DNA of 64,000 nucleotides, taken from the NCBI RefSeq assembly GCF_900112175.1, contig NZ_FOYT01000001.1, positions 868,001-932,000 on the forward strand, given 5' to 3'. Position 1 is the stretch's first letter, and every line of letters starts with the position of its first letter. The stretch is from Halogeometricum rufum (GTDB lineage: Archaea; Halobacteriota; Halobacteria; Halobacteriales; Haloferacaceae). A program made the translations under genes and the position numbers. This document shows positions 38,059-64,000 of this stretch, in pieces. The notes beneath the pieces are model-generated. The model was not told the DNA's origin, did no database searches, and worked only from the letters and a program-made list of their open reading frames with translations.

Positions 38059-38415
38059 ATGTCAGAGGCACAAACAGTCAACGACTCGGGCCTGGCACGC
38101 GATCTGACCGCGTTCCAGCAGAACATCCTCGTCATCCTGGCCGAGGAACCGATGTACGGACTCGCTATCAAGCGCAATCTCGAAGACTACTACGGGACGG
38201 AGGTCAACCACGGCCGCCTGTACCCCAACCTCGACGACCTGGTCGAGATGGGTCTCGTAGAGAAGAGCGAACTCGACAAGCGGACGAACCAGTACGAACT
38301 GACCGAGAAGGGCCACGACGCGGTCCTCGACCGCTTCGCGTGGATGCTCGACAAGTTCGTCACCGACGAGACGCGCGCGGACGAAGTGCGCGAACTCATC
38401 GACGCCAACCTGTAA
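38059..38415 (+). CDS. PadR-family transcriptional regulator
   Basis: 118 residues. Winged helix: FQQNILVILAEEPMYGLAIKRNLEDYYGTEVNHGRLYPNLDDLVEMGLVEKSE, then a wing (NQYELTEKGHDAVL). The C-terminal helix (FAWMLDKFVTDETRADEVRELI) is for dimerisation. Such proteins repress by sensing ligands. It is monocistronic and leaderless by its TATA spacing; target unknown, autoregulation likely. Confidence 0.9.
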   Translation: MSEAQTVNDSGLARDLTAFQQNILVILAEEPMYGLAIKRNLEDYYGTEVNHGRLYPNLDDLVEMGLVEKSELDKRTNQYELTEKGHDAVLDRFAWMLDKFVTDETRADEVRELIDANL

Positions 38416-38442: not shown

Positions 38443-39051
38443 TCAGAACTCGGGCACGTCCGCGTCGGCGGCTTCGAACACGCGTTCGACGCTCTCGCGG
38501 ACGACGGTTTCCTGTTTTTTCGACGGCCACGCGTTCCGTGGATAGTACTCCGTGAGGAACTCCTGTATCTCGTCGCGCGAGGCGGCGTCGGCCCGGCGCA
38601 GGTAGTGGTTGCCCATGAAGTCCGCGAAGATACGGGCGTTCGCGGCGTGCGTCGCGCCGTCCTCCGCCTCGACGGCGTCGACGAGTTCGGCGTTGTGTTC
38701 CTCGACGGCGTCCCAGTCGCCGTCCACGTCGGCCCCGGTCAGCGGAATCTCGTACGCCCGGCCGGTGTCCTCGATGCGTTCGACGCGGACGACGCCATCG
38801 TCCATCCACTCGGCGGGGTGCAGTACCAGCGTCTCGTCCTCCTCGCGGATGCGGGACGTGAAGTCGTGGTCGGCCAGCATCTCCGCGCGCCGGCCGCGGT
38901 ACGCCGCCGCCTCGTTCTCGTCCACCGCGTCGCGGGCGAGTCGGGTCAGGCGCGCCGCGCCGTCCACGACGGCCTCGGGTAGTTCGCCCGTCTCGCTGTC
39001 TGCCGCCTCGCCGTCCGTCGCTTCGCCGTCTCTCCGTGTCTCCTCATGCAT
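38443..39051 (-). CDS. rnhA-operon protein (DUF7108-like)
   Basis: 202 residues, acidic. It overlaps the RNase HI gene end by 8 bp and lies downstream of it. Conserved-looking parts: LTRLARDAVDENEAAAYRGRRAEMLADHDFTSRIREEDETLVLHP and NARIFADFMGNHYLRRADAASRDEIQEFL. It is known only as a companion of rnhA in haloarchaea; I recall DUF7108. No catalytic motif is recognised. Confidence 0.75.
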   Translation of the reverse strand: MHEETRRDGEATDGEAADSETGELPEAVVDGAARLTRLARDAVDENEAAAYRGRRAEMLADHDFTSRIREEDETLVLHPAEWMDDGVVRVERIEDTGRAYEIPLTGADVDGDWDAVEEHNAELVDAVEAEDGATHAANARIFADFMGNHYLRRADAASRDEIQEFLTEYYPRNAWPSKKQETVVRESVERVFEAADADVPEF

Positions 39052-39637
39052 GGTCGAGGGCCTCGTTCGCTAGTGAGTCGGCGCGGTCGTTTATCTCTCG
39101 CGGAACGTGTTCGAGCGACCACCGGTCGAACTTCTCCAGCAGTTCGCGGACGCGCACGCGACGTTCGCGGAGTTCGGGGTTGTTCGTGTCGTACTCGCCG
39201 CGCACCTGTTTGACGATGAGTTCGGAGTCTCCGCGGACGTCCACCTCGTCGAAGCCGTACTCCGCGGCGACTTCGAGGGCGCGGACGAGCGCCTCGTACT
39301 CCGCGCGGTTGTTCGTCGTCTTCCCGATGGTGTCGGAGCCCTCGCCGACGATGCCCTCGGAGGTGACGATGGCCCATCCGATGGCGGCGGGGCCGGGGTT
39401 GCCCCGACTCGCGCCGTCGAAGTAGACGTGCGCCCGCCCCCCACGTTCCTGCAGGAGAGCGAGGAGGTCCGACGGCCGCGCCCCCTGCACGACCACCTTG
39501 TCGTCGTACGCGACGGCGTTTGCGTCGCCGCGGGACGCCCGCCAGCGTTCGTACTCGGTGTGTCCCTCCTCGACGGTGACGCCGGCCTCGGTCAACCGTC
39601 GTCGGGCCTCCTCGGGGTCGCAGTCTACGGTCGGCAT
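39044..39637 (-). CDS. rnhA: Ribonuclease HI
   Basis: 197 residues. Removes RNA from RNA-DNA hybrids. Catalytic carboxylates: YFDGASRGNPGPAAIGW (Asp), NNRAEYEAL (Glu), RGDSELIVKQ (Asp) and NDRADSLAN (Asp). The first 65 residues form an N-terminal domain common to haloarchaeal RnhA that includes VDCDPEEARRRL. ATG 39637 is preferred over 39721. Confidence 0.93.
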   Translation of the reverse strand: MPTVDCDPEEARRRLTEAGVTVEEGHTEYERWRASRGDANAVAYDDKVVVQGARPSDLLALLQERGGRAHVYFDGASRGNPGPAAIGWAIVTSEGIVGEGSDTIGKTTNNRAEYEALVRALEVAAEYGFDEVDVRGDSELIVKQVRGEYDTNNPELRERRVRVRELLEKFDRWSLEHVPREINDRADSLANEALDHA

Positions 39638-39736
39638 ACCGGACGAAGACCGAGTGCAGAAAAGAAGGGTTCGGTCCACCCCGACCGTCCGCGGTCGACG
39701 CAAACGGTTATGTGCGGCCATTTCACACTACGTGCA

Positions 39737-41614
39737 ATGAAAACAGAAAGTACGGGGAACGACGATATCCTCGAACTACTCTCCCGGCGGGACGAAGTCG
39801 CCGACGACGTCGAACGCCGGGGGGAGGTGGTCGTCGACCGGACGGAGACGGCCGAACTGACCCGACACCGACGGGTCCACGTCGTGGAGTCGGAGTCGTC
39901 GGAGACGCTGCCGCGGTCGACGTACGAGAGCGAGCGACGCCGGCGGACGCTCCGACCGAACCGGTGGGAGCACGCGCCGTCGAAGTTCCGTTCGATGGAC
40001 ATCGACTACGTCACCGACGAGTCGCCCGACGAGTGTTCGGGGTGCGGCGGTGCGGGACGGACTCCGTGTCCGACGTGCGACGGGTCGGCGGAGGAGACGT
40101 GCCCCGACTGCGACGCGACGGGCGTCGTCGACTGCGAGGGATGCGGGGGTGCCGGACGGAACGACTGCAGTACCTGCCACGGGTCCGGGACGGTGACCGA
40201 ACGGGTCGACCGGCCCTGCGGACAGTGCGACGGCAACACGTCGATACGCTGCCCGTCGTGCCTCGGCGACGACGACGACTGTCTCAAGTGTACCGGTGAC
40301 GGGGTCGTCTCGTGTCCTCGGTGCCGCGGACGCGGAACGGAGACCGAGGCTCGGGACCGCCGGTGCGGCAACTGCGAGGGCACGGGATGGCGGACTTGCG
40401 GGGATTGCGGTGGCGAGAAGACGCAACGATGCGGCCGGTGCGAGGGCGGCGGCCACATCACGTGCCGGGAGTGTTCGGGCGCGGGCGACGTCGAGTGCGA
40501 ACGGTGCGAGGGAGACGGCGAGACGGTGACGGCGACCCTCGGAACGATGGCCTTCTCGAGTTCGAAGGAGTTCGAGGTCGACGCCGCTCACGTTCCCGAG
40601 TCGCGGTTCAAGAAGACGGACGGCGACGGCGTCTCGACGACGTGTCCCGTCGACGGCGACCGACCGCCGGCCGAGAACTGGTCGGGGACCCACCTGTACC
40701 GACACGAGACGAGTCGGTCGAACGCCGACTGCCAGCACCTCGTGTACGCGTACGACGACGACCGGTACACCGCGTCGCTCGTGGACGGGGAACTCCGGTA
40801 CGACGACTTCCCGAACGACCCCGACCACCTCGACGAGATGATATCGTCGGCGTTGAACCGCGGTTACTTCGATCTCCTCTCGCCGACGGACGACCCGGAC
40901 GGAGTCGCGGCCGCCTTCCGCCGTGCTGTCGGCGACGCGGTCAAGTTCCTTCTCGTCTCCGCCCTCGCTTTCGGCGCGCTGTTCGCCGCGACGACTCTCG
41001 CCGGGGCGGACCTGTTCACGGCTGTCGGCGTCGTCGTCCTCGCACTCGTCGCGGTCGCCGTCGCCGCCATCCTCGTGGGCGACCGCGACTACTCGGGACA
41101 CGGTACCGATCGGAGTTCACCCGTGTGTTCGCCCCTGGACTTCGCGCCGTCGGCCCTCGCTGGTCTCGGGGCGGCCCTCACCTTCGTCCTCGACGTGGGG
41201 TCGGTACAGGACCGGTGGCTGGTCGTCGCGTTCGCGGTCGGACTCTGGGCCGCGCACGGCAGGCGATGGCTCGATTTCGAGGCGCGGAGACTCGCGTTCA
41301 GATCCGCCCGGCGCGCTGCGTTGCTCGACCGTCTCACGACGGACGAGGAGACGCTCTCGAAGTTCGCTCTGGGCGACCGGCTCCCGCCCGCGAACCCGAC
41401 TCCCGGCGCGTGGTTCTACGACAGGTCGAGTACCGCCGTCTTCACCGTCGGCTGGATGGGGAGCGCCGTCTGTTTCGCGGCCGCTCTCGTCGCGGGGGGC
41501 GACGGGGGGACGGCGACCGGAGCGGCGAACGGCGTCCTGTCGCTTCTGGCCGTCCTCGCCGTCGCCGTCGCCGTCGCGCTCTCGACGGTACTGCTCGGAG
41601 AGTCCGACGATTGA
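39737..41614 (+). CDS. Large membrane protein with fourteen CxxC motifs
   Basis: 625 residues. Residues 1-90 are basic and helical. Residues 97-260 hold a DnaJ-type array of 14 CxxC motifs in CxxCxG style (CSGCGG, CPTCDG, CPDCDA, CEGCGG ... CERCEG), enough to bind about seven zinc ions. A non-cysteine domain follows (HVPESRFKKTDGDG to about 390), then six hydrophobic helices in the C-terminal third (FLLVSALAFGALFAA, FTAVGVVVLALVAVAVAA, and others). DnaJ zinc fingers hold partly unfolded proteins, but no J-domain is present. Divergent from rnhA; unknown function. Confidence 0.8.
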   Translation: MKTESTGNDDILELLSRRDEVADDVERRGEVVVDRTETAELTRHRRVHVVESESSETLPRSTYESERRRRTLRPNRWEHAPSKFRSMDIDYVTDESPDECSGCGGAGRTPCPTCDGSAEETCPDCDATGVVDCEGCGGAGRNDCSTCHGSGTVTERVDRPCGQCDGNTSIRCPSCLGDDDDCLKCTGDGVVSCPRCRGRGTETEARDRRCGNCEGTGWRTCGDCGGEKTQRCGRCEGGGHITCRECSGAGDVECERCEGDGETVTATLGTMAFSSSKEFEVDAAHVPESRFKKTDGDGVSTTCPVDGDRPPAENWSGTHLYRHETSRSNADCQHLVYAYDDDRYTASLVDGELRYDDFPNDPDHLDEMISSALNRGYFDLLSPTDDPDGVAAAFRRAVGDAVKFLLVSALAFGALFAATTLAGADLFTAVGVVVLALVAVAVAAILVGDRDYSGHGTDRSSPVCSPLDFAPSALAGLGAALTFVLDVGSVQDRWLVVAFAVGLWAAHGRRWLDFEARRLAFRSARRAALLDRLTTDEETLSKFALGDRLPPANPTPGAWFYDRSSTAVFTVGWMGSAVCFAAALVAGGDGGTATGAANGVLSLLAVLAVAVAVALSTVLLGESDD

Positions 41615-41700
41615 GGAACGGCGGCGTCCGACGGTCGACCGCCCTACCCGAAATCCGGCCAAGGGTTTAAGTTCGACGCGACAGCGAATATAAAAATGCG

Positions 41701-42684
41701 ATGACACGGCCTACTCGCCAGCGGGAGCGAGACAGTGATAGAACACGGTGGCAGGGTGAACGCGAGGAGGACGCTGCCGAAGACGAGGACGATATCGACA
41801 TCGAGGACATGGACGAGGAGGACCTCGTCCGGACCGGGGACGGTGAACTCATCCACGAACCGACCGGCATCGTCGTCGAGGAAGAACAGATAGACCCCGG
41901 TCCGGAGTGGCGGGCGTTCAACCACTCCGAACGCCAGTCGAAGTCCCGCGTCGGCGCGCCGACGACGCAGACGATGCACGACAAGGGACTGACGACGACC
42001 ATCGACTGGAAGGACAAAGACGCCTACGGTCGGTCTATCTCCTCGCGGAAGCGCTCGCAGATGCACCGCCTCCGCAAGTGGCAGGAACGCATCCGCACGA
42101 AGGACGCGGGCGAGCGCAACCTGCAGTTCGCGCTCTCCGAAATCGACCGGATGGCCTCCGCGCTGGGCGTCCCCCGGTCGGTTCGCGAGGTGGCGTCGGT
42201 CATCTACCGCCGCGCCCTGAACGAGGACCTCATCCGGGGACGCTCCATCGAGGGCGTCGCCACCTCCGCGCTCTACGCCGCCTGTCGGAAGGAAGGTATC
42301 CCCCGTTCGCTCGAGGAGATTTCCGACGTCTCGCGGGTCGAACGGAAGGAGATCGGTCGGACGTACCGCTACATCTCGCAGGAACTCGGCCTCGAGATGA
42401 AGCCGGTCGACCCCAAGAAGTACGTCCCGCGGTTCTCCTCGGAACTGGACCTCTCGAAGGAGGTGCAGTCGAAGGCCAACGAGATAATCGAGACGACGGC
42501 CGAGAAGGGTCTGCTCTCGGGCAAGTCCCCGACCGGGTACGCCGCCGCCGCCATCTACGCCGCCTCCCTGCTCTGCAACGAGAAGAAGACCCAGCGCGAA
42601 GTCGCCGACGTGGCGCAGGTGACCGAAGTCACCATCCGCAACCGGTATCAGGAACAGATCGAAGCGATGGGCATCCACGGCTGA
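41701..42684 (+). CDS. tfb: Transcription factor TFB without zinc-ribbon cysteines
   Basis: 327 residues. The two cyclin-like repeats are complete: [17 protein letters not shown] ... [11 protein letters not shown] ... SALYAACRK and [32 protein letters not shown] ... [11 protein letters not shown], plus HTH ([21 protein letters not shown]). The B-finger/linker region [17 protein letters not shown] is present. The N-terminal ribbon has lost all four zinc cysteines: the equivalent stretch is acidic ([22 protein letters not shown]). TFB recruits RNA polymerase to TATA-bound TBP. One of several paralogues expected in the genome. Confidence 0.93.
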
Positions 42685-55243: not shown

Positions 55244-57211
55244 ATGTCACTCGACTTCACCGGCGTCGTCGCCGCCGCGAGTGCGGCGCTCTCGACCGTC
55301 ACCGGTGCCGCTGGACCGGACGCCGACCGCCGCCGCGACGCCGCCCACGCCTCCTGCCGGTGTCGGCACGCGTTCGAGACGCCGACCGGGCGGTCGACCG
55401 ACCGGACGGAACTCGTCGTGGACGCCGCCGACTGCCCCGGCGGCGGCGACCTGGCGCGCGCCCCGGCGTGTCGCGCCGCCGTCGTCGGCGCACTCGCCGA
55501 CAGGGACGCCGACGTGGTCCGCGTGCGCGCGGACGGATTCGAACGGACGTACGACGACGACGCGGCGGGCGTCCTCCTCGCGGCGGGCCGGTTCGTCGAA
55601 CGCGTCGCGTTCCACGACGAGTCGCTGGCGGACCGCGCCCGCCGCGACCCGGTGGCGGCGGTCCGCCGCGCGACGGGGCGTGCGGGACCGGTGGCTCGAA
55701 TCGCCGCCGAGACGGGCCTCGCCGCGGGCGTCGAACGCGCCGACGACTACGAGACCCTCCTGCGGAGTTACGTCGGCCCGTCGGTGGCCCGGTCCCGCGT
55801 CGCCCGCCGCCCGCCGGCGGACGCCGTCCTCCTCGACCGCCGCGAACTCGACACCGGCGCGACGGTGCGACTCTACGACACCGGGGCAGGCCAGCTATAC
55901 CACCTCACGCCCGTCGCCCACGAACTCGACGCGGCGGCGACGGCGACGCTCTCGGCGGCGCACGAGTGCCTCGCGCGCGGCGTCGTGCGGGGCGGCGAAC
56001 GCGCCCCGGGCCGGGCGGTACGCCACGTCGCCGACGAGGACGACCCGGTCGAGGCGCTGTCGGCCGTCCTCGACCGCCACACCCGCGGCAACGGCGTCCT
56101 CGACGACCTGTTCGCCGACCCGCGGGTGACGGACGTGGTCGCGTCGGCGCCGGTCGAGTCGACCCCCGTTCGCGTCGCTCTCGACGGCGAACGCGTCCGC
56201 ACGAACGTCCGTCTCACCCCGGACGGCGCCGCCGCCCTCGCCTCGCGGTTCCGACACGCCAGCGGTCGCGGGTTCTCCCGCGCCTCGCCCGCACTCGACG
56301 CCGCCGTCGACGCGCCGGACGGGTCCCGAGTCCGCGTCGCCGGCGTCACCGCCCCCGCCAGCGACGGCATCGGGTTCGCCTTCCGCGCCCACGGCGACGG
56401 CGCGTGGACGCTTCCGGGCCTCGTCGCCGCCGGGACGCTCCCGGCGGAGACGGCGGCGTTCCTCTCGCTCGCCGTCGAACGCGGCGCGACCGGACTCGTC
56501 GCCGGAACCCGCGGGGCCGGCAAGACCACGCTCCTCTCCGCCCTCCTGTGGGAACTCCCCGCGACGACGCGCCTCGTCACCGTCGAGGACACCCCCGAAC
56601 TCCCCGCCGAAGCGCTCAGAGACGCCGGGCGCGACGTGCAGGCGCTCCACACGGACCTCGCGGACGACGGCTCGTTCTCGCCGACAGACGCGGTCCGCAC
56701 CGCGCTCCGACTCGGCGACGGCGCTCTCGTCGTCGGCGAGGTGCGCGGCGAGGAGGCGAGCGCCCTGTACGAGGCGATGCGCGTCGGCGCGCACGGTCAC
56801 GCCGTGCTGGGGACGATACACGGCGACTCGCCCGCGGCCGTCCAGGAACGCGTCGTCTCGGACCTCGGCGTCCCCGAGTCTTCGTTCGCGGCGACTGACC
56901 TCGTCGTCACCTGCGCCCGCGACGGCGGGGACAGGCGCGTCGAGACGGTCGCCGAAGTCCGACGGAGCGACGACGGCGTCCGCTTCGAGTCGCTGTACGA
57001 ACGCGACGGTGACGACGTGTGCGAGACGGGCGTCGTCGCCCGCGGCGACAGTTCGCTGGTCGCCGCGCTCGCCCGGCACGACGAGTCCTACGCGGACGTG
57101 CTGGACGCGCTCGACCGCCGAACCGCGACGCTCGCCCACCTCGCGGAGACGGACCAGACGCGCCCGGACGACCGGTCGAACGTCGGCGGCGACGACGGAG
57201 GGCGTCGATGA
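55244..57211 (+). CDS. PilB-type secretion/pilus assembly ATPase
   Basis: 655 residues. A type II/IV secretion ATPase: Walker A GTRGAGKTTLL (near 421), Asp-box VEDTPELPAEAL, Walker B GDGALVVGEVRGEEA (near 495) and HAVLGTIHGDSPAAVQERV. The N-terminal 100 residues hold four cysteines (38, 40, 64, 76), a possible metal site absent in minimal PilB. ATP hydrolysis drives fibre assembly with the membrane protein encoded next. TATA AGATTTAAG lies at 55211-55219. Its stop overlaps the next start by 4 bp. Confidence 0.92.
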   Translation: MSLDFTGVVAAASAALSTVTGAAGPDADRRRDAAHASCRCRHAFETPTGRSTDRTELVVDAADCPGGGDLARAPACRAAVVGALADRDADVVRVRADGFERTYDDDAAGVLLAAGRFVERVAFHDESLADRARRDPVAAVRRATGRAGPVARIAAETGLAAGVERADDYETLLRSYVGPSVARSRVARRPPADAVLLDRRELDTGATVRLYDTGAGQLYHLTPVAHELDAAATATLSAAHECLARGVVRGGERAPGRAVRHVADEDDPVEALSAVLDRHTRGNGVLDDLFADPRVTDVVASAPVESTPVRVALDGERVRTNVRLTPDGAAALASRFRHASGRGFSRASPALDAAVDAPDGSRVRVAGVTAPASDGIGFAFRAHGDGAWTLPGLVAAGTLPAETAAFLSLAVERGATGLVAGTRGAGKTTLLSALLWELPATTRLVTVEDTPELPAEALRDAGRDVQALHTDLADDGSFSPTDAVRTALRLGDGALVVGEVRGEEASALYEAMRVGAHGHAVLGTIHGDSPAAVQERVVSDLGVPESSFAATDLVVTCARDGGDRRVETVAEVRRSDDGVRFESLYERDGDDVCETGVVARGDSSLVAALARHDESYADVLDALDRRTATLAHLAETDQTRPDDRSNVGGDDGGRR

Positions 57212-58926
57212 CGGACCTCGCTCGCGCGGCGGCGTCGCTCGCGCGCCTGTACCCGCGACCGGTCGAACCCGCGGACGACGTTCGCGCCGCGCTGTCGTAC
57301 CTCGGGAGCGACGCCGACGCGGCGACGGTCGTTCGCGCCGGCTACGCGCTGTCACTCCCGCTGGCCGTCGCCGCGTTCGCCGTCGTCGTCCTCGTCGCCC
57401 CCGGTGCTTCGCTCGTCGCCGGTCTCGCCGGCTCCCTCGCCGTCGGCCTCGCGGCCGCGCACGCCGCGCATCGACTGCCGGTCGTCGCCGCCCGACTCCG
57501 CCGGACGCGCGCGCTGGGCGAGTCGGCGGCGCTGGTTGGTCGCGCGACCCTCCGGATGCGACTCGGGCCGACGCCGGAACGCGCCGCGTCGTTCGCCGCC
57601 CACACCGCGGACGGACCGCTGGCCGACAGCCTCGCGGCGCACGTCCGGCGCGCGCGCGGCACTCCGGACTCCGGGTTCGAGACGTTCGCCGCCGAGTGGC
57701 GCGACCGGTTTCCGGCGCTGGACCGCGCCGTCTCGCTCCTCCTCGCCAGCGCCGACGCGCGGGCCGAGGACCGCGAACGCGGCCTCGACCGCGCGCTCGA
57801 CGCCGTTCTCGACGGCACGCGCGACGAACTCGCGACGTTCGCGGCGGACGTCCGCGGTCCGACGACGGGCGTCTACGCCTTCGGCGTCCTCCTCCCCCTC
57901 GCCCTGGTGGGCGTCCTGCCGGCGGCCCGCGCGGGCGGCGTGTCGGTTCCGACGGCCGCCTTCGTGGCCGTCTACGACCTGCTCCTCCCGGCCGGACTCG
58001 TCGCCGCGAGCGCGTGGATTCTGCTCCGCCGCCCCGTCGCCCTCGCCCCGCCGCGCGTCGACGCCGCGCACCCCGACGTACCGTCGTCGCTCCTCCCGGC
58101 CGGACTCGTCGCCGTCGTCGCCGCCGGCGTCGGCTGGGTCGTCGGCGCGACAGTCGCGCCGTGGGCCGACGCCCTCACCGCCGTCGGCGCGGGCGTCGGG
58201 TCGGGACTGGTCGCGCGGTACTACCCGATGGCGCGGGTCAGAGCGCGCGTGCGCGCCGTCGAGGACGGACTCGACGACGTGCTCTCGCTCGTCGGGCGGC
58301 GCGTCACGGCGGGCGACTCGGTGGAAGTCGCCGTCGAGTCCGCGGCGGACGCGGTGTCGACGCCGGCGGGCGACGTGTTCGCCGACGCCGCCGGCGTCCG
58401 CCGCCGCCTCCGCGTCGGCGTCCGCGAGGCGTTTCTCGGGCGTTACGGCGTCCTCTCGGACCTCCCCAGTCCGCGGGCGCGGAGCGCCGCCGCACTGCTC
58501 GCCGTCGCGGCGACGGAAGGGCGGCCCGCGGGGCGGGCCGTCGTCGCCACCGCCGACCACCTCCGCGAACTCCGACGGGTCGAGAGCGAGGCTCGTCGGG
58601 AACTCGCGTCGGTGACGGGCACGCTGTCGAACACCGCCGCCCTGTTCGCACCGCTGGTCGGCGGCGCGACGGTGGCGATGGCGGCGCGGATGGGCGCCGC
58701 AGAGACGGCGCTGGTCGAGGGCGGCGCGAGGACGCTCGGTCCGTCCCTCCTCGGCGTCGCCGTCGGAGCCTACGTCCTCGCTCTGGCCGTCGTCCTGACC
58801 GCGCTCTCGACGGGTCTCGACCGCGGACTCGACCGGACGCTCGTCGGCTACCGCGTCGGCCTCGCCCTCCTGTCGGCGACGGCGGCCTACCTCGCGGCGT
58901 TCCGCGGGGCGGCGCTGGTGTTCTGA
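57208..58926 (+). CDS. PilC/GspF-type membrane platform protein
   Basis: 572 residues, with about eight hydrophobic helices in two halves and cytosolic loops. SLVGRRVTAGDSVEVAVESAADAVSTPAGDVF and LAVAATEGRPAGRAVVATADHLRELRRVESEARRELASVTGTLSNTAALFAPL resemble the two GspF-like domains. It would be the inner-membrane platform driven by the ATPase. Strong Ala/Arg/Val bias. Coupled to the ATPase (ATGA overlap). Confidence 0.88.
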   Translation: MTDLARAAASLARLYPRPVEPADDVRAALSYLGSDADAATVVRAGYALSLPLAVAAFAVVVLVAPGASLVAGLAGSLAVGLAAAHAAHRLPVVAARLRRTRALGESAALVGRATLRMRLGPTPERAASFAAHTADGPLADSLAAHVRRARGTPDSGFETFAAEWRDRFPALDRAVSLLLASADARAEDRERGLDRALDAVLDGTRDELATFAADVRGPTTGVYAFGVLLPLALVGVLPAARAGGVSVPTAAFVAVYDLLLPAGLVAASAWILLRRPVALAPPRVDAAHPDVPSSLLPAGLVAVVAAGVGWVVGATVAPWADALTAVGAGVGSGLVARYYPMARVRARVRAVEDGLDDVLSLVGRRVTAGDSVEVAVESAADAVSTPAGDVFADAAGVRRRLRVGVREAFLGRYGVLSDLPSPRARSAAALLAVAATEGRPAGRAVVATADHLRELRRVESEARRELASVTGTLSNTAALFAPLVGGATVAMAARMGAAETALVEGGARTLGPSLLGVAVGAYVLALAVVLTALSTGLDRGLDRTLVGYRVGLALLSATAAYLAAFRGAALVF

Positions 58927-58960
58927 CTACCCCTGGCCGCGCCGGGGACTCGCACGAGTG

Positions 58961-58969
58961 TTTATATAC
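58961..58969 (+). promoter_or_regulatory. TATA box inside the pilus-like locus
   Basis: TTTATATAC, 22-30 bp before the ATG at 58991. It is the best TATA match in the locus and suggests the downstream four-gene module has separate expression. Confidence 0.6.
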
Positions 58970-58990
58970 CGAACCGCGGCCAGACGGCCC

Positions 58991-59470
58991 ATGCTCGACC
59001 TCCCACTCGACTCGTGGTACGCGTGGCTGGGCCTCTCGCTGGCGGGCGTCGCTCTCGTCGGCGCGGCGTCCGGACTGCCGACGGTGCCGCCGCCGAACGC
59101 TGACTCGGCGGCCGCGACGGTGGACCGCGTGGCCGCCGCCGAGTACGCGGCGACGGCCGAACACCCGCTGGACGCGACGGCGGTCAGACTCGGCACGCGC
59201 CGCCTCGCACTCCGGAACGACGCCGGCACCGCGCACGCGACGCTCGCGTTCGGTCCGGTCACGCCCGTCCCGACGAACGACTCGGCGCTTCGGGACGTGG
59301 TTCACGGCGCGCACCCCTCGACCGCGTTCGACACGCCGGAGGCGTTCCGGCAGGCGATAATCGACGCCCGCGCCCGCGGCGGCGACGCGCCGTGGCGCGC
59401 GGTGGACCGCACGCTTCTCGTCCGCAGAACGACCTGGGAGGGGGTCGATGTCGTCCTCGTGGACGCGTGA
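58991..59470 (+). CDS. Envelope protein of the pilus-like locus (DUF7283-like)
   Basis: 159 residues. An N-terminal hydrophobic helix (WLGLSLAGVALVGAASGL, about 11-30) is followed by an extracytoplasmic domain (DATAVRLGTRRLALRNDAGTAHATLAFGPVTPV ... HPSTAFDTPEAFRQAI). No processing site before the helix is clear. It overlaps the next gene by 23 bp, so order and dosage are tightly linked. DUF number from memory. Confidence 0.72.
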   Translation: MLDLPLDSWYAWLGLSLAGVALVGAASGLPTVPPPNADSAAATVDRVAAAEYAATAEHPLDATAVRLGTRRLALRNDAGTAHATLAFGPVTPVPTNDSALRDVVHGAHPSTAFDTPEAFRQAIIDARARGGDAPWRAVDRTLLVRRTTWEGVDVVLVDA

Positions 59471-59855
59471 GGCGCGCCGCAGGGCGCAGGCCTCGCCGAT
59501 AGCCGCGCTGGCCGCCCTGTTCGCCGTCTGCGCGGGGCTGAGTCTCTACGCGACGGTGCTCGGCGGGTCCGTGCCCCTCGTTCAGGGGGGCGGCGTCGCC
59601 GACCCGACGCTGGACCGCGTCCACGACGCCGCGACGGACGGCGGCGTGGCCGCCCCAGACCGACTCGACCGGGCGGCGACTCGGGGACCGGACGGTCACC
59701 GTCTCAACGTCTCGCTGACCGTCGCGGACGAGGCGTGGACGGTCGGTCCGTCCGTCCCGGGAGGCGCGACCGACCGCGCGAGTCGCCTCGTGAGCGTCCG
59801 TCTCGCGCCGGGCCGGGTCGAACCCGGTCGCCTGTCGGTGGTGGTGTGGTCGTGA
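59448..59855 (+). CDS. Pilin-like protein with class III signal (DUF7285-like)
   Basis: 135 residues. REARRRAQASPIAALAALFAVCAGLSLYATVL looks like a class III (prepilin-peptidase) signal: a basic leader, then RAQ before ASPI and a hydrophobic helix. The mature part is short and beta-rich. Likely minor pilin or pseudopilin. It overlaps both neighbours (23 bp upstream, 4 bp GTGA downstream). Confidence 0.7.
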   Translation: MSSSWTREARRRAQASPIAALAALFAVCAGLSLYATVLGGSVPLVQGGGVADPTLDRVHDAATDGGVAAPDRLDRAATRGPDGHRLNVSLTVADEAWTVGPSVPGGATDRASRLVSVRLAPGRVEPGRLSVVVWS

Positions 59856-60724
59856 ACGCCGCCGTCGACGCCGCCGTCTTCCTCCTCCTCCTCGGAGCGG
59901 CCGTCGTGGGCCTCACCGCCGCCGACGCGGGGCCGGGAGCGGCCGACGCCGACGCCGACGGCGACGCGGACGCCGTCGCGAACGTCCTCGCGACCAGTAC
60001 CGCGACGGTGAACTACACGCTCTCGCCCGGCGCGCGACGCGCGGCCGAGAGCGGGGCCGACTTCGAGCGAACCGCCGGCCCGGAGTTCGAACGGACCACG
60101 CACGGGTCGCTCGCGGGCCTCCTCGCTCGCGCCGCCGTCGGAACCGCGGGGTTCGGCGACGACCCCGTGACGCACGCCCGCGACGACTTCCGGTCGGCCG
60201 TCCGGGACGCCGTGGCCGCCCGTCTCGAACCGGTCGGCCTCCGCGTCGACGCCGTCTGGCGCCCGTATCCCGATTCACCGGTCGAGGGACGCGTCGCGGT
60301 GGGTGAGGTCCCACCGGCGACGGCGACGACCGACACGGCGACGCTGTCGGTGCCGGCGGGGACGCGATCGCTGGCCGCGAACGAGACGCGCGACTTCTCG
60401 TCGCTGTCGAGCGCCGTCGCCCGCCGTACCGTCGAGACGCTCGCGCCCGCCGGACAGATGCGACTCGCCCTCCGCGGCGACGCGCCCGTCTCCACGCTCG
60501 TCGGGTATCGATACGACCGCCTCGCCGCGGAACTGAACACGTCCGTCGACTCGCGGACGGCCGACGCCGACACCGAGGCGGCGAACCGGCGTCTCGCGGC
60601 CGCCCTCGCGCCGCGCGTCGAGTCCGACCTGCGGGCGCGCTACGACTCCCCCGAGGACGCCGCGGCCGCCGTCGGCGTCGCGGAGGTTCGAATCGTCGTC
60701 CGGACGTGGGAGGCGGGTCGCTGA
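59852..60724 (+). CDS. Envelope protein of the pilus-like locus (DUF7284-like)
   Basis: 290 residues starting at GTG. One N-terminal hydrophobic segment (AAVFLLLLGAAVVGLTAADA) without a clear prepilin motif, then an Ala/Thr-rich external region with YTLSPGARRAAE and LSLAPAGQMRLALRGDAPVSTLVGYRYD-like beta elements. It ends one base inside the start of the large protein gene. Function unknown. Confidence 0.7.
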   Translation: MNAAVDAAVFLLLLGAAVVGLTAADAGPGAADADADGDADAVANVLATSTATVNYTLSPGARRAAESGADFERTAGPEFERTTHGSLAGLLARAAVGTAGFGDDPVTHARDDFRSAVRDAVAARLEPVGLRVDAVWRPYPDSPVEGRVAVGEVPPATATTDTATLSVPAGTRSLAANETRDFSSLSSAVARRTVETLAPAGQMRLALRGDAPVSTLVGYRYDRLAAELNTSVDSRTADADTEAANRRLAAALAPRVESDLRARYDSPEDAAAAVGVAEVRIVVRTWEAGR

Positions 60725-63700
60725 TGCGTCTCGCTGACGACGAACGGGCGCGCGTGCCGTTCGCCCTCGTCGGCGTCCTCCTCCTCGTCGGCAGTTCGAC
60801 GTTCGCCGCGTCGCTGGCATCGCCCGACGCGGGCGTCGTGGACCGCTCGACGGACGTGGCGATGGACCGCGCGGACGCCGAGACGACCGCAGCGCTCCGC
60901 GTCGCCGCCCGCGAGGCGGCCCGCGCCGCGGCGAGGGACCCCGTGACGACGCCCGCGAACAACTCGGTCGGGCGAGCGCTCGGACCGAACGAGACGTTCC
61001 GGAACTACCTGCGCCTCCGCGTCGCAGTCGCCGCCCGCGACGCCCTCTCGACGGTCGAACACCGGCGCGGCACGACGACGGCGCGGGCGTCGCTGCCGCC
61101 CCTGTCGAACGGCCCCGGCGCGGCGATTCGGAACGTCTCCGTCGCGGGCGAGGACGGCCGCCGCGCCCTCTCCGTGACGGTTCGCAACGTCTCGCTGGTC
61201 GCGAGCAGAGACGGGCGCGTCGTCGCCGACCGGACGGTGACGCGGCGCGTGACCGTCGCGGTGCCGGTGCTCGCACTCCACGCGCGCACGACCGACTACC
61301 AGAGACGGCTGAATCGGTCGCCCGTGTACGCGCCGGGACTGGCCCGCCGGACGACGGCCGGACTCCTCGCGGTCACGCAGGCGCGTGCGGTCGCCCAGTA
61401 CGGCGGCGTCCCCGTCGAGAACGTCCTCGCGAACCGGCACGTCGAACTGTCGACCAACGCCGGCGTCCTCGCGGCCCAGCGCGCGTCGTTCGGCCGGGTG
61501 GACCCCGACGCCGAACGCGGCGTTCGCGCGGCCACGCTCCGCACCGGCGTCGCCGACGTCGGTGCCGTCGCCGGCGGCGGCCCGGCGACCGGCCGCGTCG
61601 TCTCGGCGATGCCGAGTCCGAACCCGCGCCCCTCGCCCCGGCAGTTACCGACGCAGACGCTCGCAGTCGGCGTGAACGAGACGGCGGACGACGCCTTCCT
61701 CGCGTTCCTCCGCGGGTCCGACGCGCCGACGCGGCCGGGACTGGACGCCGTCGTCGGCGACGGCTACGCACCGAACCTGACCGTCGTCGCGGCGGTGACC
61801 GAGGCGCGCGAGGGGCACCGACCGGCACCGGACGCGCCCGGTCCGTCGTGGTCGCTCGTCACCGAGGACGTGGCGACGACGGTCACCGTCGACGACGCCG
61901 AGGGGGCCGCGACGCCGCCGGCCGTCGGCGTCGGCGAACGAGCGTTCGAGACGACGGCCCGGCGGGTCCACAGCAGCCACACGGTCACGCGGACGTGGCG
62001 CGCGGCGAACCGGTCGCGGCGGACGACGACCGCCGAGTGGACCGACCGCCATCGCGTCCGCGTGGCCGTCGTCGGGTCGCTTCGGACGCTCCCCGGTCCA
62101 CGTCGGCCGGTCGACCCCCTGTTCGACCGCGGCGGCGCGCTCTCGGGGCCGAACCTCGAGTCCGTCCCGCGTCGCGCCCGCGCGGAACTCGCCTCTCGGG
62201 GCGGCGCGGACGCCGTCGCCCGGCGGGCGGTGACGGGCGACGCGAACCGCGCGCCGGCACCGGTCGCCGCGCCCCGGCCGTCCGGCCTCCGCCCGTGGGT
62301 GTACGAGGACGTGGCGACACTCCGCGAGACGGTTCGGAACGTCTCCGTGGAGGTGGACGCGCGCGACACCGCCACCGGCCGGGCCAACGCGGCGGCCGAA
62401 CTCGCCGCGACCCTGCGGGACCGCAGAGCGGAACTCGTGGGCGCGCCGGCGACGTACGACGGCGTCGCGGACCGGGTTCGCGTCGCCGCGCGGGCGGCGT
62501 ACCTCGACGCGGTCCTCGCGAGACTCGACGAACGCGCCGCCGCGGCCGACGGTCGGAACGGCCGTCTCCGCGACGCCCTCGCGTCTCGCGGCGTGAACGC
62601 CACCCGGGTGAGCGCTCACCTGTCGAGTCGTATCGACGCCGGTGGTCGCGGTTCGGCCGCGCCGAACGACTCCGCCGCACCGAACGACTCCGCCGCGTTC
62701 GTCCCCGACGGCGACCCCGCCTATCTCTCGCTGTCGGGCGTGGACGGACGCGCGGTCGACGGCGTCGCCGACGGCGCGACGTACACCCCGCTTGCGACCC
62801 GCAACACGAACCTGTTCACGCTCCCGTACGGCGACCTCGCGAACGCCGTCGTCGGGAGCGCCCTCGGCCCCGGCGGCGACGTGTCGCTCAGAACCGCCGG
62901 CCGCGCCCTCGCCGCCGCGAACCGGACGCTCGCGGTCCGCGACGACGCGACGCTCCGCGCCAGACGCGACGGACTGCAAGACGACGTCGAACGCTCGTTC
63001 GGGTCCGTCAGTCGGACGGCCGCCGCGACGGTCGAACGCGAGACGGACCTGACGCGCGCGGAGAGCGAGAGGGTCGTCGCCGCCGGACTCGCCCGGTGGG
63101 ACGGCGTCGGCCGCCGGGCCGTCGCCGCGGCGAACGGGTCGCTCGCGGCCGCCGTCGCCGCGGAGTCTGGGGTGCGCGGTGTGATGGCTCGCGACCGACT
63201 GGCGACGACGCTGCGGGTCGACCTGCGGGAGGCGACGACGGCGTCGCGGGTTCGCGTCTCCGAGGCGGCCGTGAACGACACCGTGACGCGGACCCGAACC
63301 GTCGCGAAGGAACTCGCTCGGGAGGCGGCCTCCCGCGCCGCGGACCGGGCCACCGGTCGCGTCCTGAACGGGACGCTCGGCGCCGTCCCGGCGGGCCTGC
63401 CGCTCTCGCCGACGCTGAGTCCGTGGGTCGCCACGACGAACCTCTGGGTGGTACAGGCGCGCGGCGCGTACGCGCGGTTCAGTGTCTCCGCCGGCGACGG
63501 GGCGGTGCCGACGACGTACGTCCGCGACGGCAGCGCGGTCCGTCTGGACGCGGACGGGGACGGTAGCCGAGAACTCGTCGGGTCGAACGACCGCGTCGGA
63601 TTCCGGTTGCGGACCGTCGTCGTCGCGGCGGTCCCGCCCGGCGGGAACGGCGTCGGCGACGTGGACGGCGTCGCGTCCGAGACGTCTCCGGCGTGGACCG

Positions 63701-63756
63701 GCCCCGCGCCCGGGCCGCGGTGCGACACGTCGACGGGGCGGTGCCGGCGGGAGTGA
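60724..63756 (+). CDS. Giant surface protein of the pilus-like locus (DUF7286-like)
   Basis: 1010 residues. A single N-terminal hydrophobic helix (VPFALVGVLLLVGSSTFAASLA) anchors a long extracytoplasmic region rich in Ala, Arg, Thr and Asn (many NxS/T sites, e.g. NNS, NVS, NLT, NRS). Only local features are visible, including a duplicated NDSAAP segment from an 18-bp repeat at 62656-62691 and conserved-looking RVTVAVPVLALHARTTDY and RNTNLFTLPYGDLANAVVG. It is as long as the ATPase and PilC-like genes combined. It may be the main surface fibre or tip protein, which is inference. Confidence 0.7.
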   Translation: MRLADDERARVPFALVGVLLLVGSSTFAASLASPDAGVVDRSTDVAMDRADAETTAALRVAAREAARAAARDPVTTPANNSVGRALGPNETFRNYLRLRVAVAARDALSTVEHRRGTTTARASLPPLSNGPGAAIRNVSVAGEDGRRALSVTVRNVSLVASRDGRVVADRTVTRRVTVAVPVLALHARTTDYQRRLNRSPVYAPGLARRTTAGLLAVTQARAVAQYGGVPVENVLANRHVELSTNAGVLAAQRASFGRVDPDAERGVRAATLRTGVADVGAVAGGGPATGRVVSAMPSPNPRPSPRQLPTQTLAVGVNETADDAFLAFLRGSDAPTRPGLDAVVGDGYAPNLTVVAAVTEAREGHRPAPDAPGPSWSLVTEDVATTVTVDDAEGAATPPAVGVGERAFETTARRVHSSHTVTRTWRAANRSRRTTTAEWTDRHRVRVAVVGSLRTLPGPRRPVDPLFDRGGALSGPNLESVPRRARAELASRGGADAVARRAVTGDANRAPAPVAAPRPSGLRPWVYEDVATLRETVRNVSVEVDARDTATGRANAAAELAATLRDRRAELVGAPATYDGVADRVRVAARAAYLDAVLARLDERAAAADGRNGRLRDALASRGVNATRVSAHLSSRIDAGGRGSAAPNDSAAPNDSAAFVPDGDPAYLSLSGVDGRAVDGVADGATYTPLATRNTNLFTLPYGDLANAVVGSALGPGGDVSLRTAGRALAAANRTLAVRDDATLRARRDGLQDDVERSFGSVSRTAAATVERETDLTRAESERVVAAGLARWDGVGRRAVAAANGSLAAAVAAESGVRGVMARDRLATTLRVDLREATTASRVRVSEAAVNDTVTRTRTVAKELAREAASRAADRATGRVLNGTLGAVPAGLPLSPTLSPWVATTNLWVVQARGAYARFSVSAGDGAVPTTYVRDGSAVRLDADGDGSRELVGSNDRVGFRLRTVVVAAVPPGGNGVGDVDGVASETSPAWTGPAPGPRCDTSTGRCRRE

Positions 63757-63791
63757 GAAACCGTTTTGCCCGAGGCGCGGCGAGTGCAGGT

Positions 63792-64000
63792 ATGCTCTAC
63801 GACGCGGCCGACGACCCGGCGTCGCTATCGAGGACCGAGTTGCGAGAGGCGTACGAGCGACAGATTCGAGACGTGGTCGACGGCGTCGGCGTCGAGACGG
63901 CGGCGGCCGAGTCCGGCGTGGACGCGGACCTGGTCGCCGACGTCGCCGCGGGCGAAGTCCCCGAGATGCGCGTCGAGGAGGCGGCGGCCCTGTTGGCGCT
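63792..64000 (+). CDS. DUF5791-like protein, N-terminal part
   Basis: 69 residues visible; the gene runs past the right edge. MLYDAADDPASLSRTELREAYERQIRDVVDGVGVETAAAESGVDADLVADVAAGEVPEMRVEEAAALLA fits a small haloarchaeal helical family I recall as DUF5791, with a helix-turn-helix-like pattern. It follows the giant protein by 35 bp. Partner and role unknown. Confidence 0.65.
   Translation, partial: MLYDAADDPASLSRTELREAYERQIRDVVDGVGVETAAAESGVDADLVADVAAGEVPEMRVEEAAALLA

Follow-up and report, generated by a model that had tools for sequence, protein, structure and literature searches.

A mirror-spaced array of fourteen CxxC motifs in a putative membrane-anchored, J-domain-less DnaJ-type protein of Halogeometricum rufum

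The presence of fourteen CxxC motifs in a row within a single predicted membrane protein raises the question as to how so long a DnaJ-type zinc array might fold and what it might be for. The protein is encoded at positions 39737-41614 of a 64,000-nucleotide stretch of the Halogeometricum rufum genome (contig NZ_FOYT01000001.1, positions 868,001 to 932,000; hereafter the window). An initial annotation made from the sequence alone had described fourteen consecutive motifs, no J-domain, a separate middle domain and six C-terminal membrane helices. All 14 motifs were recovered on counting in the 625-residue translation, starting at residues 100, 111, 122, 133, 144, 161, 172, 182, 193, 210, 221, 232, 243 and 254 and placing 28 cysteines within 158 residues (100-257). 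No J-domain match to the protein was found in Pfam or NCBIfam, and the middle domain (residues 258-385) indeed lies beyond the array and is conserved in the family. Two features had gone unmentioned, namely that an N-terminal domain (residues 1-99) is conserved and that the motifs are spaced with mirror symmetry. The reading we prefer, with a probability of about one half, is that of a J-domain-less, membrane-anchored DnaJ-type zinc protein, most likely a holdase or a thiol-guarding chaperone.

The spacing of the window array is a perfect palindrome (11,11,11,11,17,11,10,11,17,11,11,11,11), and its 11,10,11 core between two long spacers recurs in two orthologues (G053 and G685) and in all five relatives of a Halobaculum type. 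Mirror symmetry was assessed over 44 array proteins taken from phage contigs, haloarchaea and further archaea of the phylum, and grouped by single linkage (50% identity across 60% of the shorter chain) into 28 clusters; one such cluster merges Halobaculum arrays with some phage arrays, and viral duplicates (L144, L146, L156), ordinary DnaJ proteins (L070-L072) and the short L134 were left out. The mirrored-spacing difference summed over the 28 clusters was 53, as against 262.6 +/- 19.5 when spacings were shuffled within each array, and 0 of 100,000 shuffles fell as low (shuffle minimum 151), with the proviso that these fractions are not strict probabilities, as the arrays share some degree of common ancestry. 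Perfect palindromes were seen in 15 of the 28 clusters and differences of no more than 2 in 24, with L087 differing by 7 and L089 by 3. The number of motifs was even in 26 clusters; the two odd ones, L081 and L088 (differences 17 and 14), each contain one in-register CxC, and counting it makes their motif number even and brings the differences down to 3 and 2. An earlier version of the test on 11 lineages had given 13 against 102.8 +/- 11.4. Long spacers were examined in 25 of the 28 clusters, leaving out L037, which repeats the window spacing, as well as L081 and L088. In the eight arrays with several long spacers every off-centre one was mirrored (22/22; null mean 27%), and where there was a single long spacer it was exactly central (17/17). 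Taken across CxxCxG arrays, the sequences point to a strong mirror tendency, with exceptions that are taken up below.

An array spaced in this way may pair its motifs 1-14, 2-13, 3-12, 4-11, 5-10, 6-9 and 7-8 and so offer seven zinc sites, because the facing loops of a hairpin should match in length and the number of motifs should be even; such a seven-site ladder agrees with the spacing being unchanged among three diverged orthologues. In the reading we prefer the 14 motifs would fold as one long nested hairpin in which motif i faces motif 15-i, its seven rungs holding one zinc apiece, with the two 17-residue spacers opposite each other and motifs 6-9 at the tip. The N-terminal and middle domains would form the base, as the DnaJ zinc finger is described as protruding from its C-terminal domain CTD1 (PMC12799103), and the C-terminal helices would hold the ladder at the cytoplasmic face of the membrane. 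There it might act as a holdase or guard the thiols of membrane or membrane-near clients, which would be passed to the ordinary DnaK/DnaJ. For the window protein we infer zinc binding, rung pairing, topology, chaperone activity and type of client in this form.

The initial annotation had proposed a search for orthologues with a count of their motifs, and this returned two, G053 (Halobellus salinus) and G685 (which has the same genus label), with identities to the window protein of 41.5% over 578 residues and 43.3% over 589. Both keep all 14 motifs at identical spacing, the same layout and the same genomic place between rnhA and the transcription factor B (TFB) gene, and since orthologues so diverged share motif number, spacing and place, the 14-motif array is unlikely to be a product of chance. 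Within its own genome (4.19 Mb, 7 contigs) the array protein matches itself alone (E <= 0.001). When the part behind the array was used as the query, 9 of 170 family genomes matched, belonging to 4 of 28 genera, and none of the 4 other genomes of the same genus did. These nine comprise the three 14-motif orthologues (the window copy included), five of the Halobaculum type (label g5), which carry 18 or 20 motifs and end in a winged-helix-like domain, and G035 with 8 motifs. Three of the five Halobaculum-type copies are present in the plasmid collection, and six further g5 genomes listed gave no match to the post-array part.

More distant members occur in at least 21 of 392 genomes across the order; 24 had matched initially, three of which (L070, L071, L072) were removed as ordinary DnaJ, and the figure is a lower bound as at most two candidates were scored per genome. 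A larger count, 246 of 294, was not used as a prevalence, since most of the matches listed covered the array only and lay in frames of DnaJ size. Scans of GTDB contigs for named relatives confirmed none of 73 candidates in a first round and two of 280 in a second. Motif number ranges from 4 to 20 among the relatives. In L044, L045 and L047 the only hydrophobic segment lies at the extreme end of the chain, and the others, judged by eye, seem to have none. A profile of 19 family N-domains, with the array excluded, matched 34 of 6609 open reading frames, every one of them array-bearing, these matches being mostly rows used in building the profile or copies of them.

Known families cover little of the protein. 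None was matched above cut-off in Pfam or NCBIfam, the best Pfam match being PF00684 DnaJ_CXXCXGXG at 19.8 bits (cut-off 32.7) with two weaker ones besides, and neither a PadR domain (Pfam) nor any PADLOC match was found for it. A single PHROGs family, phrog_28723 of unknown function, was matched with 24.6 bits over 47 residues, and a comparison of the family profile with solved structures returned the zinc domains of DnaJ and BSD2 plus a few other proteins, matched over the array part. The earlier statement that no closely matching described family came to mind is thus borne out by Pfam, NCBIfam and PADLOC, but the protein does not stand alone, as relatives exist, patchily, throughout the haloarchaea.

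Membrane anchoring rests on five clear hydrophobic segments in the C-terminal part, with 19-residue Kyte-Doolittle means of 1.62-3.15 in regions chosen by hand. The sixth of the helices previously claimed (488-506) is marginal, with a mean of 1.03 in a stretch that overlaps the third segment, a point that belongs with those weighed below; the full-length AlphaFold model, of low overall confidence, also draws six long helices there, and six is the likely, though not certain, number. Given six helices, a topology with both termini inside would fit the basic loop at residues 507-567 (11 R+K, 8 D+E) and the loops behind helices 1 and 5, which contain no R or K. The loop behind helix 2 (2 R+K, 4 D+E) says little on topology, and the segments of helices 3 and 4 overlap.

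Some relatives lie beside genes of chaperone type. A J-domain-like or Hsp70-like gene was fused, adjacent or at most 2.4 kb away in 11 of 27 scanned loci, a count that excludes a J-domain gene 5.1 kb from L041. A J-domain gene adjoins the array gene of L089 and L090 (Pfam 59.4 and 66.0 bits) and, by a profile built for this analysis, that of L091 (123.7 bits), and near L047 there are a J-domain gene (74.5 bits) at 1.2 kb and an Hsp70 gene (519 bits) at 2.3 kb; the J-domains of all four contain HPD. In addition, an Hsp70-like gene stands directly upstream of the array gene in L044, L079 and L080, and a profile comparison aligns this gene with the Hsp70 of haloarchaea (probability 85.8, E 5.4e-6). 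Among the functions suggested initially, namely chaperone, zinc store or redox sensor, a chaperone-like role is therefore the best supported, because the array resembles the zinc hairpin of DnaJ in enlarged form and J-domain or Hsp70-type genes lie beside, or are fused to, some of its relatives; a sensor stays in consideration, whereas a plain store is disfavoured because the spacing is mirrored and the flanking domains are conserved.

In L044 (6160-7293), L079 (6365-7507) and L080 (6975-8111) the divergent Hsp70-like gene overlaps the start of the tail-anchored array gene, and the pair is possibly a dedicated two-gene system. A search with the Hsp70-like profile matched 3 of 392 genomes, two being the source genomes and the third a match of 38 residues, so that the association was not extended. 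Upstream of the array gene of L045 (8894-10052) the Hsp70-like gene is spread over several frames, being either broken or an assembly error. L085 (6872-8935) encodes a J-like N-terminal region without HPD, membrane segments, an array and a middle domain in one protein, and its neighbours, named by eye, include Ser/Thr kinases, a PP2C-type phosphatase and a vWA protein.

A number of findings weigh against the membrane chaperone, and those from the mirror itself are the most direct. Of seven held-out arrays, three are perfect palindromes, namely L134, L170 (11,11,15,12,15,11,11) and the phage record L173, and four are unmirrored by strict count: L094 from Halobacterium plasmids (16 motifs, difference 30), L168 from Streptomyces plasmids (7 motifs, difference 34) and the phage arrays L171 (20 motifs, difference 42) and L172 (14 motifs, difference 25). 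The held-out sum is 131 against 161.5 +/- 17.0, with 4.6% of shuffles as low. AlphaFold, run on a three-row alignment, lends no support to the hairpin or its base, giving pLDDT 37.5 and pTM 0.32 for the full-length protein and pLDDT 31.9 and pTM 0.19 for the array by itself. Besides the marginal sixth helix, no DnaJ C-terminal family (CTD1/CTD2) was detected in Pfam up to E = 1, a result from sequence only, and the winged helix of the Halobaculum relatives points to regulation.

The chaperone-type neighbours are likewise limited, being confined to 5 of 17 clusters with several of the matches marginal, and none was found at the window, at G053, at the Halobaculum copies or at the remaining loci of the 27. 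The J-like region fused N-terminally in L085 scores 25.7 bits, under its cut-off of 27.8 (and 40 bits with NCBIfam TIGR02349 DnaJ_bact, far below the full-length cut-off), the J-like match of L087 scores 14.9 bits, and that of L086 was found only by the profile built for this analysis, with no Pfam match; HPD is absent in all three. The Pfam Hsp70 score is 20.1 for L044 (cut-off 20.6) and 12.2 for L080, with none for L079. The four-motif protein ZnJ2 is reported to show no synergy with DnaK/DnaJ/GrpE, which speaks against hand-over to DnaK as a general rule, and to have released one zinc rather than two (PMC5818400).

Mirror spacing as an exceptionless rule is accordingly rejected, 4 of the 7 held-out arrays breaking the strict count, and arithmetical addition of both sets gives 184 against approximately 424. 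A recount of L172 by hand, admitting degenerate CxC and CxxxxC, put eight motifs on either side of a 31-residue centre and reduced the difference to 5, and the left arm of L094 has possibly been lost in part to an ISH6 element; both remarks were made post hoc and are not counted. A wider claim would be a rule of folding, by which even-numbered CxxCxG arrays, from 4 to 20 motifs, form a nested zinc ladder that grows by one motif per arm. It would take the exceptions as degenerate motifs or a lost arm, have the scaffold used by phages as well as by haloarchaea and further archaea of the phylum, and make the window clade a membrane chaperone or receptor, wired to a DNA-binding domain in Halobaculum. 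We regard this rule, judged jointly with all of these parts, as tentative and rather doubtful, having lowered its odds because of the held-out arrays that break the strict count. Both low-confidence AlphaFold models draw the two long spacers as strands, which we do not count as evidence.

Of the other explanations the one that survives best, although we think it unlikely, is a membrane-bound zinc or redox sensor, in which oxidation or loss of zinc would open the ladder and a signal would pass through the helices to a DNA-binding partner, fused in the Halobaculum-type relatives and separate or absent in the window organism. By alignment a winged-helix-like domain follows the membrane region in all five of these relatives, but only that of L041 reaches the Pfam PadR cut-off (32.9 bits, cut-off 27), the other four remaining below theirs (L042 PadR 18.6, L039 HTH_45 16.6, L038 AbiEi_4 16.6, L040 none at E 0.01), and the domain is absent in the window protein and both orthologues. 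A PadR gene does stand third upstream in the window, but it appears non-specific: in 7 of 11 genomes the block of pyrophosphatase (PPase), PadR, DUF7108, rnhA and TFB is present with no array gene at that place. PadR thus belongs to a conserved block, and it was rejected as a specific partner.

An improbable reading is a membrane-anchored thiol-disulfide exchanger for membrane-protein clients, similar to LQY1 or ZnJ6 and devoid of holding activity. J-less membrane DnaJ-type fingers with such activity have been described, LQY1 being thylakoid-anchored with two zinc and disulfide isomerase activity (PMC6805722) and ZnJ6 thylakoid-associated with oxidizing activity (PMC7865324). The J-less ZnJ2, however, is reported to hold clients and to form no disulfides (PMC5818400), and the window sequence offers no feature that separates holding from thiol exchange.

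Still less probable is that the gene is an accessory to a mobile or conflict system, with a role unrelated to folding. Its patchy occurrence (9/170 family genomes, 0/4 others of the genus), the three Halobaculum copies in the plasmid collection, the similar arrays in phage contigs and the other genes held at the rnhA-TFB place in 3 of 11 genomes would all suit such a gene, but PADLOC gave no hit, and three orthologues at one place with approximately 41-43% identity look like inheritance with loss. Least probable of all is a zinc store or metallothionein-like membrane buffer, since the density of cysteines and a motif number varying from 4 to 20 would suit it but a store needs neither mirror spacing, recurring glycines nor conserved flanking domains, and no zinc transporter was found among the seven neighbours scanned with Pfam.

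The gene lies within a conserved neighbourhood whose members by Pfam are pyrophosphatase, PadR, DUF7108, RNase H-type, TFIIB and Nre genes (Table 1). Among the 11 genomes from which the TFB region was fetched, the gap between rnhA and TFB measures 93-185 bp in seven, two of which (G102, G038) have a family array gene elsewhere in the genome. In three same-genus genomes the distance is approximately 2.7 kb with two other genes between, and in the last no rnhA was found within the fetched stretch. The rnhA-TFB stretch (window 39640-41700) is a place that takes up genes, the array gene in three genomes and other genes in three. The start codon of the array gene is uncertain, as its frame is open further upstream with an alternative in-frame ATG at 39710. 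Towards the end of the window (56001-64000), where both strands carry long frames that overlap, G+C rises to approximately 76%, compared with 64-73% in the rest.

Table 1 Positions of the array gene, its parts and its neighbours, counted within the window
Feature	Residues	Position	Strand	Remarks
PadR gene		38059-38415		third gene upstream of array gene; Pfam PadR 65.5 bits
rnhA, RNase H-type		39044..39721	-	left border; Pfam RVT_3 88.1, RNase_H 41.1 bits; listed start probably too early
Whole array gene	1-625	39737..41614	+	625 aa: N-domain, 14-motif CxxC array, middle domain, five or six membrane helices
N-terminal domain	1-99	39737..40033	+	acidic; conserved across family
CxxC array	100-257	40034..40507	+	14 motifs
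First long spacer	148-160	40178..40216	+	left arm; mirror partner of 40325-40363
Inner four-motif cap, motifs 6-9	161-196	40217..40324	+	11,10,11 core
Second long spacer	197-209	40325..40363	+	right arm
Middle domain	258-385	40508..40891	+	beta-rich, with conserved VDGxLRYDD-like stretch, then short helix; fold from low-confidence model
Membrane region		40946..41599	+	candidate helices 404-422, 429-447, 472-490, 488-506, 568-586, 603-621
Transcription factor B gene		41701..42684	+	right border; Pfam TFIIB 179.9 bits

Arrays of this kind were also encountered further afield. Viral scans using the window clade and the tail-anchored clade gave no confirmed member, and a scan using the clade beside J-domain genes gave 19 loci. 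CxxCxG arrays of 6-20 motifs are found in these viral contigs (L142-L160) and in three uncultured phage records of approximately 635-642 kb (L171-L173), joined by eye to varying flanking sequence; most of the IMG/VR arrays are mirror-spaced and two of the three large-phage arrays are not. L133 (G500:C21:30462-30842), from a genome of the same phylum outside the haloarchaeal order, is a short probable lipoprotein consisting almost entirely of an array of eight motifs, mirror-spaced at 11,11,19,28,19,11,11. On the Halobacterium salinarum plasmids pNRC200 and PHS2 there is an array relative of 16 strict motifs (L094:6962-7990, L096:4962-6200) with unmirrored spacing, no gene in the PLSDB table and its 5' side taken by an ISH6 element. 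The eight-motif array of L170, on the Halobiforma lacisalsi plasmid pHLAJ5I, likewise has no gene in that table, and the array proteins of the Streptomyces plasmids (L168, L169), annotated as hypothetical, have seven strict motifs and unmirrored spacing.

In the open literature, searched in one library and judged mostly by titles and the openings of abstracts, we found no account of this array family or of mirror spacing. Should the mirror rule hold, sequence alone would show, for most cysteines of a long CxxCxG array, with which others they share a zinc, and the window protein would be, to our knowledge, the first DnaJ-type hairpin with seven zinc sites. Membrane-anchored Hsp40-type proteins without a J-domain, so far known from plastids, would also occur in archaea, standing in some relatives beside unusual Hsp70-like genes.

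Several known systems invite comparison. The PadR-type winged helix that ends the Halobaculum-type relatives is absent in the window protein. The metazoan SSUH2 lacks a J-domain and has the order N-domain, array, C-domain, with no membrane region that we know of and an array that differs in length from that of the window protein. L129, whose source archaeon belongs to the phylum but not to the haloarchaeal order, presumably resembles SSUH2 still more; it scores 12.6 bits (E 0.038) with the profile of the family middle domain and gives nothing with that of the N-domain. SSUH2/fls485, which contains CXXCXGXG repeats, is regarded in print as a putative chaperone with a proposed thiol activity (PMC2838759, PMC7818184), and its relationship to the family is a lead. 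Published phage proteins with such motifs, the HMO-2011-type DNA polymerases (PMC9038755) and a protein of phage Riggi (PMC3853051), are described with two CXXCXGXG motifs, as against 6-20 in the phage arrays found here.

Class A DnaJ proteins (PF00684) resemble the window protein in their CxxCxGxG-type motifs and in a finger flanked by a domain on both sides. Their four motifs pair in nested order, 1-4 and 2-3, as the mirror spacing suggests for the window array: in Ydj1, Cys143 is reported to pair with Cys201 and Cys162 with Cys185 (PMC6584821), and zinc site 1 of Salmonella DnaJ is given as C147, C150, C200 and C203 (PMC8262869). In ordinary haloarchaeal DnaJ, with spacing 17,26,14, the longest spacer is central but the mirror is inexact (difference 3). 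Unlike class A proteins, the window protein has 14 motifs and a membrane region, and matches to the J-domain and the C-terminal domains are absent.

The plastid DnaJE proteins (LQY1, ORANGE, PSA2, BSD2, ZnJ2, ZnJ6) contain a DnaJA-type finger without a J-domain and several are membrane-associated. They have four motifs, for which the accounts cited mostly give two zinc per protein (LQY1, PMC6805722; ZnJ6, PMC7865324; Ydj1, also with four, PMC6584821). In LQY1 and ORANGE the membrane segment precedes the finger, the ORANGE proteins being described with two predicted segments ahead of it and with holdase activity (PMC12063368), whereas in the window protein the membrane region comes after the array. 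The window array resembles the zinc domains of both DnaJ and BSD2, yet stays below the PF00684 cut-off, and the protein has N-terminal and middle domains of its own, BSD2 matching the array part only. With its array, its lack of a J-domain, its anchor, its flanking domains and the J- or Hsp70-type neighbours of its relatives, the window protein is closest to these J-less plastid DnaJE proteins.

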